Part shown: positions 7,530-29,686 of the stretch, in pieces
Layout of the letters: each line of letters opens with the position of its first letter
Numbering within the stretch: position 1 is the first letter of the stretch
Source: Methylococcaceae bacterium
Lineage (GTDB): Bacteria; Pseudomonadota; Gammaproteobacteria; Methylococcales; Methylomonadaceae
Assembly (NCBI GenBank): GCA_020048335.1
Contig: JAIFMS010000016.1
Location: 1 to 33,680 of the forward strand
Direction of reading: 5' to 3'
DNA length: 33,680 nucleotides
Notes under the pieces: generated by a model
What the model was told of the DNA's origin: nothing
Databases searched by the model: none
Seen by the model: only the letters and a program-made list of their open reading frames with translations
Translations under genes and position numbers: made by a program

Positions 7530-7669
7530 GTCTAAAGTTTTGTCACAGACTCTATAAACCCTGCGAAGGCTAGAAATTGGTTTATAATCAGTTGCTAATA
7601 TTACGTCTATCTGTGTTACAGTCTAGGTAAAATAAAAAAAGCAAGTCAATTAACAATGTGGAGAATTTT

Positions 7670-8940
7670 ATGTCAAACAAACATCATACCCTTTTGATTG
7701 TGGGCGGCGGCGCGGCGGGGGTGTCTGTTGCCAATACAATGCGTAGACAAGATGCCAATATAGATATTGCTATTGTTGAGCCTTCTGAAAAGCATTATTA
7801 CCAACCTGGCTTTACCATCATCGGTGGTGGCGCTTACACCATGAAACAAACAATGCGCAATGAAGCCGATTTAATTTCTGATAGCATTGTGTGGATAAAA
7901 GAGTATGTTCAAACTTTTCAACCTGAGCAAAATACCGTTACTTTGCGTTCAGGTGAAACAGTCAGTTATGATTATCTGGTGGTTTGCCCAGGATTGCAAT
8001 TGGATTGGGATAAAATTAAAGGTTTAAAAGAAACCTTAGGAAAAAATAACGTTTGCAGCAATTATTCGCCTGAAACAGTTGAATATACTTGGGAATGTAT
8101 TAAATCCATCGAATCAGGTAATGCTCTGTTTACTCAGCCACCGATGCCAATTAAATGTGCGGGCGCTCCCCAAAAAATCATGTATTTAGCGGCGGATAGA
8201 TTTCGTAAAAAAGGAATTTTAGACAAATTCACGATTGAGTTTTGCAATGCAGGACCTGGACTATTTGGGATTCCTTTTTTTGCCAAAGCCTTGTCAAAAG
8301 TGGTGGCAGATTATGGTATCAAAACCTGTTTTGGACATAATTTAGTGGCGATTGACGGTGAAACAAAAACCGCCACGTTTGAAACAACCGATGCAGATGG
8401 TAAAAAACAACAGGTTAATAAACCCTTTGACATGATTCATGTCACGCCACCGCAAAGTGCGCCTGACTTTATTAAACAAAGCCCGCTTGCCAATGCCGCA
8501 GGCTGGGTTGAAGTCCATGATAAAACCTTGCAACACGTTAAATATCCTAATATTTTTGGTCTAGGTGATGCCACGTCCACGCCTAATGCTAAAACGGCGG
8601 CGGCGGTGCGTAAACAAGTGCCTGTCGTAAACAAGTGCCTGTAGTGATAGATAATATTACCCATTTAATGCGTAGCCAAGCCGTAGTAGACGCTTATAAC
8701 GGGTATGGTTCTTGTCCCTTGACCACTTCACTGAGTACGGTGATGTTGGCTGAGTTTTCTTACGGTGGTAAAGTGACCCCATCCTTTCCTTTACTCGACC
8801 CACGCGCCAATCGCTGGATTTGGTGGGTCGGTAAAATCATGGGATTTCCGTGGATGTATTGGAGTTTGATGCTAAAAGGCTATCGCTTTGATATTCCTAG
8901 TCTTGAGTCGTATGCTAAACGTTTTATGGATAAAGAATAA
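7670..8940 (+). pseudogene. sqr: Sulfide:quinone oxidoreductase, frameshifted by a 17-bp tandem duplication
   Basis: This is a type II sulfide:quinone oxidoreductase (flavoprotein that oxidises sulfide and passes electrons to quinone at the inner membrane) in two reading frames. Part one starts at ATG 7670 (ribosome site TGGAGA at 7659-7664). It has the FAD-binding LLIVGGGAAGVSVAN and the first redox cysteine in IKCAGAPQKI (C163), and stops at 8642-8644. Part two is open to 8940 and has the second redox cysteine in GYGSCPLTT and the hydrophobic C-terminal membrane-binding part. The break is a perfect 17-bp direct repeat at 8609-8625/8626-8642. Removing one copy gives AAAVRKQVPVVIDNI and a continuous protein of about 417 residues, the normal family length. 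As read, the product lacks the second cysteine and the membrane anchor, so it should be inactive. An assembly error or phase-variable tract is the alternative. Confidence 0.93.
8609..8642. repeat. 17-bp perfect tandem duplication inside sqr
   Basis: CGTAAACAAGTGCCTGT occurs at 8609-8625 and again, immediately and exactly, at 8626-8642. Seventeen is not a multiple of three, so the second copy shifts the frame and brings in a TAG at 8642-8644. The lack of divergence between copies points to a very recent event or an assembly artefact. Confidence 0.98.
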
Positions 8941-12623: not shown

Positions 12624-13004
12624 ATGAAAATTTTACAAAACATCGTTTTATCTGCTGCTCTTGCAACCTCTATGGTTGCTTTCTCAACCAGCACAATGGC
12701 AAATGAGAAAAAAGAAGCGGCAAGTGTTGATGTTCTTATTAAAAACACGCTTGAACATATCCAAGCAGCGATTGCTGGAATTGATAGCAATGCAACAACC
12801 GATGTTATTACTGCACATATAAAAGAAGCACGTCAAACACAAAAAGACATCACTGTTGGTGCATTAGATCAAAAACGGCAACACGCAAGCTCTAAATTAA
12901 TCAGAGCTAGCCGTGATATTAAAGATGGTCAAAACAAAGAAGGCAGAGCTATTTTAGTTGAAGCCTTAGCCGATTTTCAAGAACTTGAAAAACTTGCAAA
13001 ATAA
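12624..13004 (+). CDS. Small secreted helical protein (paralogue A)
   Basis: A 126-residue protein with a clear Sec signal peptide (MKILQNIVLSAALATSMVAF, cleavage probably after TMA near residue 27), so about 100 residues would reach the periplasm. The mature part is charged, predicted helical and has no cysteine. It shares a core with the genes at 13055 and 13765: an I-EA(R/K)-K block, then R-(R/H)-A-L--A, then A---L-A--F-ELE-L near the end. The family is unknown to me. The architecture recalls small helical metal-binding proteins such as SmbP, but the histidine richness of SmbP is absent, so that link is weak. It has its own candidate promoter and strong terminator, so it is monocistronic. 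Confidence 0.8.
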   Translation: MKILQNIVLSAALATSMVAFSTSTMANEKKEAASVDVLIKNTLEHIQAAIAGIDSNATTDVITAHIKEARQTQKDITVGALDQKRQHASSKLIRASRDIKDGQNKEGRAILVEALADFQELEKLAK

Positions 13005-13012
13005 GCGGTTTT

Positions 13013-13047
13013 ATCAGGTCTAATAGCTTGTATTAGACCTGATTTTT
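13013..13047 (+). terminator. Intrinsic terminator after paralogue A
   Basis: A perfect 13-bp stem (arms 13013-13025 and 13031-13043, ATCAGGTCTAATA and its complement) with a 5-nt loop GCTTG, followed by TTTT and an AT-rich stretch. It lies 8 nt past the stop codon of the 12624 gene. Confidence 0.85.
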
Positions 13048-13054
13048 CATAGGC

Positions 13055-13435
13055 TTATTTTTTATGGGTTTTGTTGTAAACAACTTCCATCTCTTTAAAC
13101 GATTTCAAAGCATCCTTTAAAGCCACATCAGCTTCAGCTCGTTTGTCTTCTTTGAGCAATTCCCGTGCTTTTCTTAAGACTTCATTGGCTCTTTGACGTT
13201 CGCGTTCTGTTCCTTCAAACCGGTATTCTTTTTGTAACTGACGTGCTTGAGTAATTGAGGCATTCACAGCTTCCTCACTACCTTTTTCTTCTACAAATTT
13301 AATCGCGTGTTCAATTTTCTCAATCGTGCCTTCAAGAGCGGCTCTTACTTTTGCATCGCCTCCTGATTCTGCAAAAGCAGTTGATGAAGCTGCAATCATA
13401 ACAGCACCGATAAAGATTTTTTTAACAAGTTGCAT
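13055..13435 (-). CDS. Small secreted helical protein (paralogue B)
   Basis: A 126-residue protein starting MQLVKKIFIGAVMIAASSTAFA, a signal peptide with a probable AFA|ES cleavage site, so the product is periplasmic. The frame stays open upstream to 13492, but that extension encodes an unrelated hydrophobic stretch and would spoil the signal peptide; the candidate promoter at 13454-13482 also excludes it. The mature part is highly charged and helical, with QARQLQKEYRFEG, RERQRANEVLRKA and ALKDALKSFKEME aligning with the paralogues at 12624 and 13765. No cysteine is present in the mature part. Function unknown. It is convergent to paralogue A and divergent from paralogue C. Confidence 0.8.
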   Translation of the reverse strand: MQLVKKIFIGAVMIAASSTAFAESGGDAKVRAALEGTIEKIEHAIKFVEEKGSEEAVNASITQARQLQKEYRFEGTERERQRANEVLRKARELLKEDKRAEADVALKDALKSFKEMEVVYNKTHKK

Positions 13436-13453
13436 AGTCGTTAAGCCCTGTAA

Positions 13454-13482
13454 ATAATATAAAAAATTTAAAACTATCGCAA
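13454..13482 (-). promoter_or_regulatory. Sigma70-type promoter candidate for paralogue B
   Basis: Read on the minus strand, TTGCGA (-35, complement of 13477-13482) is followed after exactly 17 nt by TATTAT (-10, complement of 13454-13459). The gene starts 18 nt beyond the -10, giving a very short leader. Confidence 0.55.
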
Positions 13483-13682
13483 AAAAGCACACTCAAAAAA
13501 GTCTTAGATAAACCGCTCAAGCTAAATCATCTTTTAATCGTTTTAAAATGTAAAATTTCTGTCATAGTGCCTTGTTGTAAATAAACGAAGCCTTTTTATT
13601 ATACGATGATTTAATGGCAGAAAGGCGGTTTTTCATTGTTTAAAATTAAACTGCTATTTTTATCAAAAAATAGGTTTTTTTA

Positions 13683-13691
13683 TGCTAGAAT
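13683..13691 (+). promoter_or_regulatory. Extended -10 promoter candidate for paralogue C
   Basis: TGCTAGAAT combines the TGn extension with a good TAGAAT -10. No -35 is recognisable at 17 nt. Transcription would start about 65 nt before the gene at 13765. Confidence 0.45.
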
Positions 13692-13764
13692 AAGACCGAT
13701 ACACTGCTACTGCTTGTGTATTCTCACCAAAAATATTATTAAACAACACGAGGGTATTTAATAG

Positions 13765-14151
13765 ATGAAACTTTTAAAAAATGTCGTTTTATGTCTTTTT
13801 ATGGCAGTTTCTGTAGTAGGTGTTTCAACAACGGCTGTTGCAGAGACTGATGCAGGTCGTGTCACATACAAGCCAACTGATGCGATTAACATGGTTGGAA
13901 CTAAAATAAAAGAAGCTCAAGATGCCATTACAGCTGGAAAGTCATTTGACGACGTTGTAAAAATCATTAAAGAAGCCAAAGACCTAGGTAAAGAAATTAA
14001 TGCCAATGATAAAGTTGACCGTGCGCGTCAACGTGCTTCACAACATTTATCTAAAGCAATTGGCATGGCAAAAGAACAAGATTTGAAAAAAGCGGCTGAA
14101 CATTTAGATGTAGCCGCTAAAGCATTTGCCGAGTTAAAGTCTTTGATTTAA
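13765..14151 (+). CDS. Small secreted helical protein (paralogue C)
   Basis: A 128-residue protein with a signal peptide MKLLKNVVLCLFMAVSVVGV (cleavage probably at AVA|ET near residue 27). The mature part is lysine/alanine-rich and helical: KIIKEAKDLGKEIN, RARQRASQHLSKAIGMAKE and AAKAFAELKSL match the same blocks in the genes at 12624 and 13055. It reads like a helical bundle of repeated helix pairs. Function unknown; a periplasmic binding or stress role is only a guess. It carries its own extended -10 promoter and a strong terminator, so the three paralogues are three separate transcription units. Confidence 0.8.
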   Translation: MKLLKNVVLCLFMAVSVVGVSTTAVAETDAGRVTYKPTDAINMVGTKIKEAQDAITAGKSFDDVVKIIKEAKDLGKEINANDKVDRARQRASQHLSKAIGMAKEQDLKKAAEHLDVAAKAFAELKSLI

Positions 14152-25438: not shown

Positions 25439-26476
25439 TTAACCACGGTTCATAATATCGCGCAAGTCAAGTGCCGCTGCGTTGGCTCTGGAAATATAGT
25501 TTGCCATTGATAACGAATAGTTAGCGAATAAATCAAACCCATCGCCGCTTAAAATCATAGGGCTTAAAATTGGGGTCAAGGCGTTTTCCATCGCGTAAAT
25601 CATAGTGTCTACGGTTCGCATCGCCCGTTTGTCTTCCAAAATCGCGCTAAAGTCGTGTTTAACCGATTTTAGAATATGTAATAATGCCCAACACGCCCCA
25701 CGCGCTTCGTAAAAAACGTCATCAATTTCTAGCCACGGGGTTTGTGTGGCAACCGTTTTACTGCGGTCGATTTCAATTTTAGGGTCAGTTAAAGCAAAAA
25801 TCGCGTGTTGGTCACTGCTGGCTGAAAGGCGTGTTGATAAACCACCGAGTCGTTTAATCACAATTTCAGAATATTGCCATAAATTATCCGCGCGGGAATA
25901 AAATTGGGCGTGACCTTCTTTTCCTTTGGGAATTTTTAGCCGTGTCATATACGCATGGAGTGATTCAATCCCTTTTTGATATTCCGATTCGGTGGAAGGT
26001 AATGCCCAAGAATTACGTTCGTAATAAAAATAAGGCTCGGCAACTGCTAAATCGGGGTCTTCCGATGATACCGATTGGTCACGCGAAAAATGGTTTCGTA
26101 AGGCGGTGGTGGCATCGCGTAACATAATCAACGCGCCATATTCCCAGTTTTTGATATTGTCTAAAAATAGACCAGGAGGGGCTACGTCATTGGTAATATA
26201 GCCACCTGGTTTATGCATCAATATTTCTGCCATGTGAGCTAAGGTATTGGTATAAACATAACCTAGTGGCAATTCAGGTTGCACACTATTACTGTCTACA
26301 AAATGTTCATTGGTGTAACGTTTTGTCGCTTCTTCTTCTATATCAAATAAATCGGGTTCTAACCCCCACCAGCCCCCTAACACGATGAGAACAAAAACGG
26401 CGGCGGCAACGAAAATACCAAAACTCCAGAGTATGCCTTTTGACTTTGCGTCTTGTAATGCTTCGCTAGCTGACAT
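25439..26476 (-). CDS. DUF2333 family protein
   Basis: A 345-residue protein of the DUF2333 family found in proteobacteria, function unknown. It has one N-terminal membrane anchor (about 15-37) and a large, probably periplasmic part. Family marks seen are LPLGYVYTNTLAHMAEILMHKPGGYITND (split by no gap), NWEYGALIMLRD and the C-terminal LSGDGFDLFANYSLSMANYISRANAA. Length is typical. The DUF4389 gene follows in the same operon. AGGA precedes the ATG. Confidence 0.88.
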   Translation of the reverse strand: MSASEALQDAKSKGILWSFGIFVAAAVFVLIVLGGWWGLEPDLFDIEEEATKRYTNEHFVDSNSVQPELPLGYVYTNTLAHMAEILMHKPGGYITNDVAPPGLFLDNIKNWEYGALIMLRDATTALRNHFSRDQSVSSEDPDLAVAEPYFYYERNSWALPSTESEYQKGIESLHAYMTRLKIPKGKEGHAQFYSRADNLWQYSEIVIKRLGGLSTRLSASSDQHAIFALTDPKIEIDRSKTVATQTPWLEIDDVFYEARGACWALLHILKSVKHDFSAILEDKRAMRTVDTMIYAMENALTPILSPMILSGDGFDLFANYSLSMANYISRANAAALDLRDIMNRG

Positions 26477-28252: not shown

Positions 28253-29449
28253 TTAAATCAGAACGCGCTCATTTGCCCAAAGTTGGCTTAATGTTTCGCG
28301 TTCGCCAATAAGATGTATTTTAGAACCATCCACCATAACCTCAGCTAAACGGGGACGTGAGTTGTAATTAGAACTCATCGCAAACCCATACGCGCCACTG
28401 GAACGCACGGCTAGCAAATCGCCTTCTGTTAAAGATAACATCCGATTTTTGCCTAAAAAATCGCCTGTCTCACACACAGGCCCGACAATATCCCACCGTT
28501 TTTCTGTTGCACAACTTTGTGCATTCACAGGAATAATCGCTTGCCACGCGCTGTATAGCGCAGGACGTAATAAATCATTCATTGCCGCATCCACAATGGC
28601 AAAATTTTTATCGGGGGTGGTTTTTAAATATTCCACTTGGGTAATTAAAATTCCTGCATTACCGACAATAGCACGACCTGGCTCTAATAAAATCTCAAAA
28701 TCATTATCGCCTAACCGTTCTAGCAATGCTGTGACGTATTCCGCAGGTTCAGGCGGGGTTTCATCGGCATAGCGAATACCTAAACCGCCGCCTAAATCCA
28801 AATGTTCTAACTCAATGTCTTTTTGTTTTAACATTTCAACTAACTGTAAAACTTTTTCCAGTGCATCTAAAAATGGGCGTGTTTCAGTCAGTTGCGAGCC
28901 AATATGACAATCAATCCCCACCACTTTAATATGGGGCATGGCGGCGGCACGTTGATATTCAAAAACAGCCGATTCTGCACTAATACCGAATTTATTTTCT
29001 TTTAATCCTGTGGATATATACGGGTGCGTTTTGGCATCAACATCAGGATTGACGCGAAATGAAATCGGTGCAATAACGCCAAGCTGTTCTGCACACGCAT
29101 TAATCCTATCTAATTCGCCACTGACTTCCACATTAAAACAGCGAATCCCGACTTGTAACGCGGCAAGAATTTCATCTTTGCGTTTGCCTACCCCTGAAAA
29201 AACAATTTTTTTCGCATCGCCGCCTGCGGTTAAAACCCGTTGTAATTCACCGATGGATACAATGTCAAAACCTGAGCCTAAACGGGCAAATAAATTCAGA
29301 ATTGCTAAATTAGAATTGGCTTTTACTGCATAGCAAATCAGATGTTTTTGCGTACCAAAGCTGTTATTAAAAGCGTGCCAATGCCGTTCTAAAGTCGCTT
29401 TAGAATAAATGTAACACGGTGAACCGTATTGTTTGACAATCTCTGCCAC
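28253..29449 (-). CDS. lysA: Diaminopimelate decarboxylase (N-terminus apparently disrupted)
   Basis: LysA is a PLP enzyme that decarboxylates meso-diaminopimelate to lysine. The open frame has 398 residues, with PLP lysine K43 (CYAVKANSN), DCHIGSQLTE, the LEPGRAIVGNAG block and VCETGDFLGKNR (active-site Cys), so the catalytic core is whole. The frame opens only at GTG 29449 (MAEIVKQYGSPCYIYSK), about 15 residues inside the normal start, and no ribosome site precedes it. Just upstream, ATG 29471 with GGAAAA reads MDYFNY, the family's usual N-terminus, but in another frame that stops after 23 codons. A short out-of-frame deletion is therefore likely; GTG 29449 may rescue a slightly shortened enzyme. 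It sits between lptM and the Sm-like gene. Confidence 0.88.
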   Translation of the reverse strand: MAEIVKQYGSPCYIYSKATLERHWHAFNNSFGTQKHLICYAVKANSNLAILNLFARLGSGFDIVSIGELQRVLTAGGDAKKIVFSGVGKRKDEILAALQVGIRCFNVEVSGELDRINACAEQLGVIAPISFRVNPDVDAKTHPYISTGLKENKFGISAESAVFEYQRAAAMPHIKVVGIDCHIGSQLTETRPFLDALEKVLQLVEMLKQKDIELEHLDLGGGLGIRYADETPPEPAEYVTALLERLGDNDFEILLEPGRAIVGNAGILITQVEYLKTTPDKNFAIVDAAMNDLLRPALYSAWQAIIPVNAQSCATEKRWDIVGPVCETGDFLGKNRMLSLTEGDLLAVRSSGAYGFAMSSNYNSRPRLAEVMVDGSKIHLIGERETLSQLWANERVLI

Positions 29450-29471
29450 AGGGATAATTAAAATAATCCAT
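29450..29471 (-). other. Out-of-frame remnant of the lysA start (MDYFNY)
   Basis: On the minus strand, ATG GAT TAT TTT AAT TAT (from 29471) encodes the typical first residues of LysA, with GGAAAA upstream inside the lptM 3' end and 2 nt from its stop. The 22-nt distance to GTG 29449 is not a multiple of three. This is the visible trace of a deletion or frameshift at the gene's 5' end. Confidence 0.8.
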
Positions 29472-29473
29472 GT

Positions 29474-29686
29474 TTATTTTTCCTTCGGTTTTTTAGCGTT
29501 GCTAGCAGGAGGTGTTGCAGCAGGCGCAGTTGTTACAGGTTTAGATGTCTCAGGTGGTTTAGGCGAGGCTTCCACAGCAGGTGGCAATGCAACAGGTTCA
29601 ATAGGTAAATATAAAGGCCCCATTTGTCCACAACCTGCTAAAGCAATGCTGATACTCAGCGAAAAAAAAAAGGGATAAAATTTCAT
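29474..29686 (-). CDS. lptM: LptM-type lipoprotein (YifL)
   Basis: A 70-residue lipoprotein, LptM (YifL family), which in E. coli binds the outer-membrane LPS translocon LptD-LptE and helps its oxidative maturation. The lipobox is L-A-G-C with C19, followed by the family mark GQMGPLYLP. The rest is a Pro/Ala/Lys-rich tail. A lipoprotein of this type upstream of lysA and dapF is a conserved gammaproteobacterial arrangement. Its stop is 2 nt from the old lysA start. Confidence 0.9.
   Translation of the reverse strand: MKFYPFFFSLSISIALAGCGQMGPLYLPIEPVALPPAVEASPKPPETSKPVTTAPAATPPASNAKKPKEK

Follow-up and report, generated by a model that had tools for sequence, protein, structure and literature searches.

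A 29-nt net loss separates lysA from its ancestral start in a Methylococcaceae draft genome, perhaps through a local assembly error

LysA is the last enzyme of lysine synthesis. In the window analyzed here, a stretch of 33,680 nt from contig JAIFMS010000016.1 of an uncultured, methane-oxidizing Methylococcaceae bacterium, the normal N-terminus of this protein and its remaining sequence are encoded in different reading frames, which raises the question of whether lysA was broken in the organism or in the assembly. The features concerned lie on the minus strand. A gene for a small lipoprotein of 70 aa, called lptM-like after the earlier note, occupies 29474-29686 upstream of lysA and ends with TAA at 29476-29474; it is followed by AC and then by ATG 29471-29469, which stands 9 nt after a Shine-Dalgarno-like GAAGGA (29481-29486). 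From this ATG, the codons ATG GAT TAT TTT AAT TAT (29471-29454) encode MDYFNY, and CCC TGT GGC AGA come next; the frame (29400-29471) continues through 17 out-of-frame codons, comprises 23 codons and is closed by TAA at 29402-29400. The LysA frame in the ORF list is open from GTG 29449-29447, 22 nt downstream of ATG 29471, to 28253 and encodes 398 aa. The sequence agrees with the earlier note, which had described an ATG with a good ribosome site 2 nt past the lptM stop, encoding MDYFNY, and a LysA body 22 nt away in another frame. A detail absent from that note is that the LysA frame after the loss coincides with that of lptM, reading TAA and then ACA TGG ATT ATT TTA ATT ATC CCT GTG.

To define what was lost, we aligned the region with the corresponding loci of 109 relatives, comprising Methylococcales and other gammaproteobacteria and including both genus mates (G001 and G002). 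In all 109, a MDYFNY-like start, about 10 further codons and a PVAEI-like segment form a single frame. In G001 and G002, 51 nt separate the ATG from the counterpart of GTG 29449, versus 22 nt in the window. The window thus lacks 29 nt net, one nucleotide short of 10 codons, from between codons 6 and 17 of lysA; the junction lies at 29453-29454, a placement that is ambiguous by 1-2 nt. With G002 standing in for the ancestral sequence, the lost stretch would reach as far as the second base of a valine codon and would be flanked by at most about 1 base of microhomology. The earlier note had taken the ATG as the ancestral lysA start and had estimated a net loss of roughly 10 codons with a change of frame, and every aligned relative supports this view. 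It had also proposed that a related lysA with the same short N-terminus be sought as a counterexample; none was present in the 109 aligned Methylococcales and other gammaproteobacterial loci. As judged from this alignment, the 29-nt loss is private to one genome, within a genus sample of three genomes, one per species.

Apart from its start, the gene is well preserved. Translated from GTG 29449, it scored 525.3 bits against TIGR01048, for which the cut-off is 297.9 (528.4 bits in a six-frame search), and its best named matches were to Methylococcales genomes, in keeping with a place of this genome in that order. It retains 148 of 149 near-invariant columns, while intact relatives miss up to 6. 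Relative to the two genus mates, amino-acid changes private to the lineage of the window affect 34 of 396 lysA codons (8.6%), compared to 34 of 276 in dapF (12.3%) and 50 of 343 in the gene at 25442 (14.6%), with third codon positions the most changed; lysA thus evolves no faster than these neighbors. This comparison with the genus mates gave no sign in lysA of the relaxed selection that would mark an old pseudogene. The few private changes and the retention of near-invariant sites therefore indicate that lysA was under selection until very recently and, since the gene shows no decay, that the loss is recent, the protein is still in use, or the loss is not real. A six-frame search of the draft genome (90.5% complete) revealed no second LysA above the TIGR01048 cut-off. 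Two LysA paralogues were considered as a backup lysA and rejected, because both score under the LysA cut-off.

Taken at face value, the sequence describes a real and recent 29-nt deletion, private to the strain or species, after which LysA, if it is made, would be a 398-aa protein begun at GTG 29449, or else lysA would be a new pseudogene in a cell that takes up lysine. We consider this account possible, although the odds are against it. The genome is smaller (2.73 Mb in 204 contigs, at 90.5% completeness) than those of its genus mates (4.3 and 3.5 Mb), so that some gene decay is possible. The structural models are also compatible with it. An AlphaFold2 model of the intact protein of a genus mate contains a confident beta-hairpin formed by residues 4-7 and 10-13; according to the alignment and models, its counterpart is absent from the truncated frame, unlike in all close relatives, and the models indicate that one N-terminal beta-hairpin is what the 29-nt loss removes. 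The truncated protein, which still reaches 525 bits as LysA, was otherwise predicted to adopt the DapDC fold (mean pLDDT 82, pTM 0.84); the model superimposes on 4xg1 with a Z score of 45.8 and an rmsd of 2.2 over 387 residues, and its alignment to experimental DapDC structures begins at residue 1. The hairpin does not strictly define LysA, as Thermotoga maritima DapDC (2yxx) is without it. In the alignments with 2yxx, query residue 21 corresponds to residue 7 of the chain and residue 1 of the model to residue 4, i.e., the T. maritima enzyme has just 3 more residues ahead of this point, and in its wild-type form it is active (PMC8277567). Because a hairpin-less DapDC is active, a protein begun at the GTG could adopt a functional fold, as far as the models and this analogy can tell.

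Production of this protein is a separate matter, because the GTG is without a ribosome site and the better-placed ATG is out of frame. Inspection of the sequence found no ribosome site adjoining GTG 29449, and ATG 29471, the stronger start, 22 nt upstream and provided with its own ribosome site, would compete with it. The suggestion in the earlier note that LysA may be made from the GTG is thus structurally plausible by model and analogy, while the lack of a ribosome site is as that note had stated. The absence of relaxed selection in lysA and the presence of similar lesions elsewhere in the same assembly, described below, also count against a real deletion.

A second way in which a real deletion might be tolerated is that ribosomes starting at ATG 29471 slip by +1 at CCC-U (TAT CCC TGT), making LysA a minor frameshift product. 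Such a slip would rejoin the frames exactly as MDYFNYP-VAEIVKQYG, with the predicted N-terminal peptide MDYFNYPVAEIVK, and CCC-U is among the proline sequences known for +1 slippage (PMC7577736). However, the high slipping rates in that study were those of tRNA-Pro without m1G37. Moreover, the junction occurs in a single genome and in no aligned relative (of 109), so that the slippery site is not conserved; no stimulator RNA structure above that of shuffled sequences was found at the junction (fold z-score -0.50); and a CCT proline codon preceded by a codon that ends in C is all that is needed to form CCC-U. We regard frameshift rescue as highly improbable. Taken together, the combination in which the deletion is real and a hairpin-less LysA is made, from an unaided GTG or via a +1 slip at CCC-U, appears unlikely; it would be a natural biosynthetic gene that survived a frame-breaking N-terminal deletion.

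The genome, which we infer from its fragmentation and its relatives to be a metagenome assembly, contains other lesions of this kind. We compared genes from both genus mates with about 0.59 Mb of its sequence, and among 119 genes tested two more were frame-broken, both by mid-sized indels. The first lies on the same contig as lysA, where an exact tandem duplication of 17 bp (CGTAAACAAGTGCCTGT x2, 8609-8642, plus strand) frameshifts a sulfide:quinone-reductase-like gene (7658-8937), the C-terminal remainder of which runs on in another frame to 8937. This duplication is the sole exact tandem repeat with a unit above 12 bp in the 439 kb sampled, a count that covers this genome's part, as N-masked contigs of the relatives swamped theirs. 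The second is rapA on contig C140 (L131, about 2820), which lacks about 46 nt net relative to a genus mate, the exact value being alignment-dependent. In the reverse comparison, on the genus mates' side, 0 of 125 genes were frame-broken; with counts this small, 2/119 versus 0/125 is not statistically significant. Widespread single-base frameshifts from noisy reads were considered and rejected, as they were not seen in about 120 genes, in which the lesions were mid-sized indels.

Three side observations were made during this survey. The size order of the contigs, considered as a potential trace of later joining, is irregular. The sampled part of the genome contains a single run of 18 Ns (L233 on contig C130, 330-347), which may reflect masking or a gap in a scaffold. 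In the window, three adjacent small proteins of 126, 145 and 128 aa (12624-14151) have signal-like N-termini, are similar by eye and may form a local family.

Among the explanations for the broken lysA, we favor a local assembly error, followed by a real recent deletion and then by a frameshift-rescued gene, and we judge the first to be somewhat better than an even bet. It is favored because the concatenation of contig ends would explain all three lesions: an overlap that goes unnoticed would leave a duplication, and a gap that goes unfilled would leave a loss. At lysA, two contig ends were most likely joined with the bases of a short gap left out, such that 29 nt are missing from the consensus, and the living population would then probably carry an intact, conventionally started LysA. 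Local errors in uncurated metagenome assemblies have been described as a source of wrong gene sequences in databases; among these errors, unrecognized overlaps at scaffold joins leave duplicate sequence (Chen et al. 2020, PMC7111523). Counted against an assembly error are that no join is marked at 29453, that the excess of broken genes over the genus mates is not significant, and that each lesion may have arisen by real mutation, since slippage or break repair ordinarily yields changes such as a 17-bp duplication and losses of 29 or 46 nt. The start need not be the biological "fossil" of the earlier note; two similar indels in about 120 genes, the absence of relaxed selection and the status of this gene as the only LysA fit an assembly error at least as well as a real deletion.

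Most likely, the loss in lysA does not represent a new biological mechanism. If the assembly is at fault, pseudogenes, auxotrophy or new start codons should be called from this draft with caution, because two further genes are similarly broken. A real deletion would show that gammaproteobacterial LysA can do without its N-terminal hairpin, and the locus would then exemplify a gene rescued by another start codon or by a frameshift.

Of the known systems with which this locus can be compared, the assembly errors of Chen et al. 2020 (PMC7111523) are alike in that short wrong stretches or duplicated overlaps disrupt genes where sequences were joined; the lysA junction is seen here in a consensus sequence. 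Compared to LysA of Methylococcales (TIGR01048), the protein encoded here is alike in that its 398 aa reach up to 80% identity and in its PLP-lysine segment YAVKANSN, and the gene shares with those of the genus mates a downstream dapF; it is unlike them in the private 29-nt loss past codon 6, in the missing N-terminal hairpin and in having the GTG as the only usable in-frame start. T. maritima DapDC (2yxx) resembles the truncated protein in naturally being without the N-terminal beta-hairpin and in beginning near the same point, but it is short by descent, is 3 residues longer N-terminally and shares 32% identity with it.
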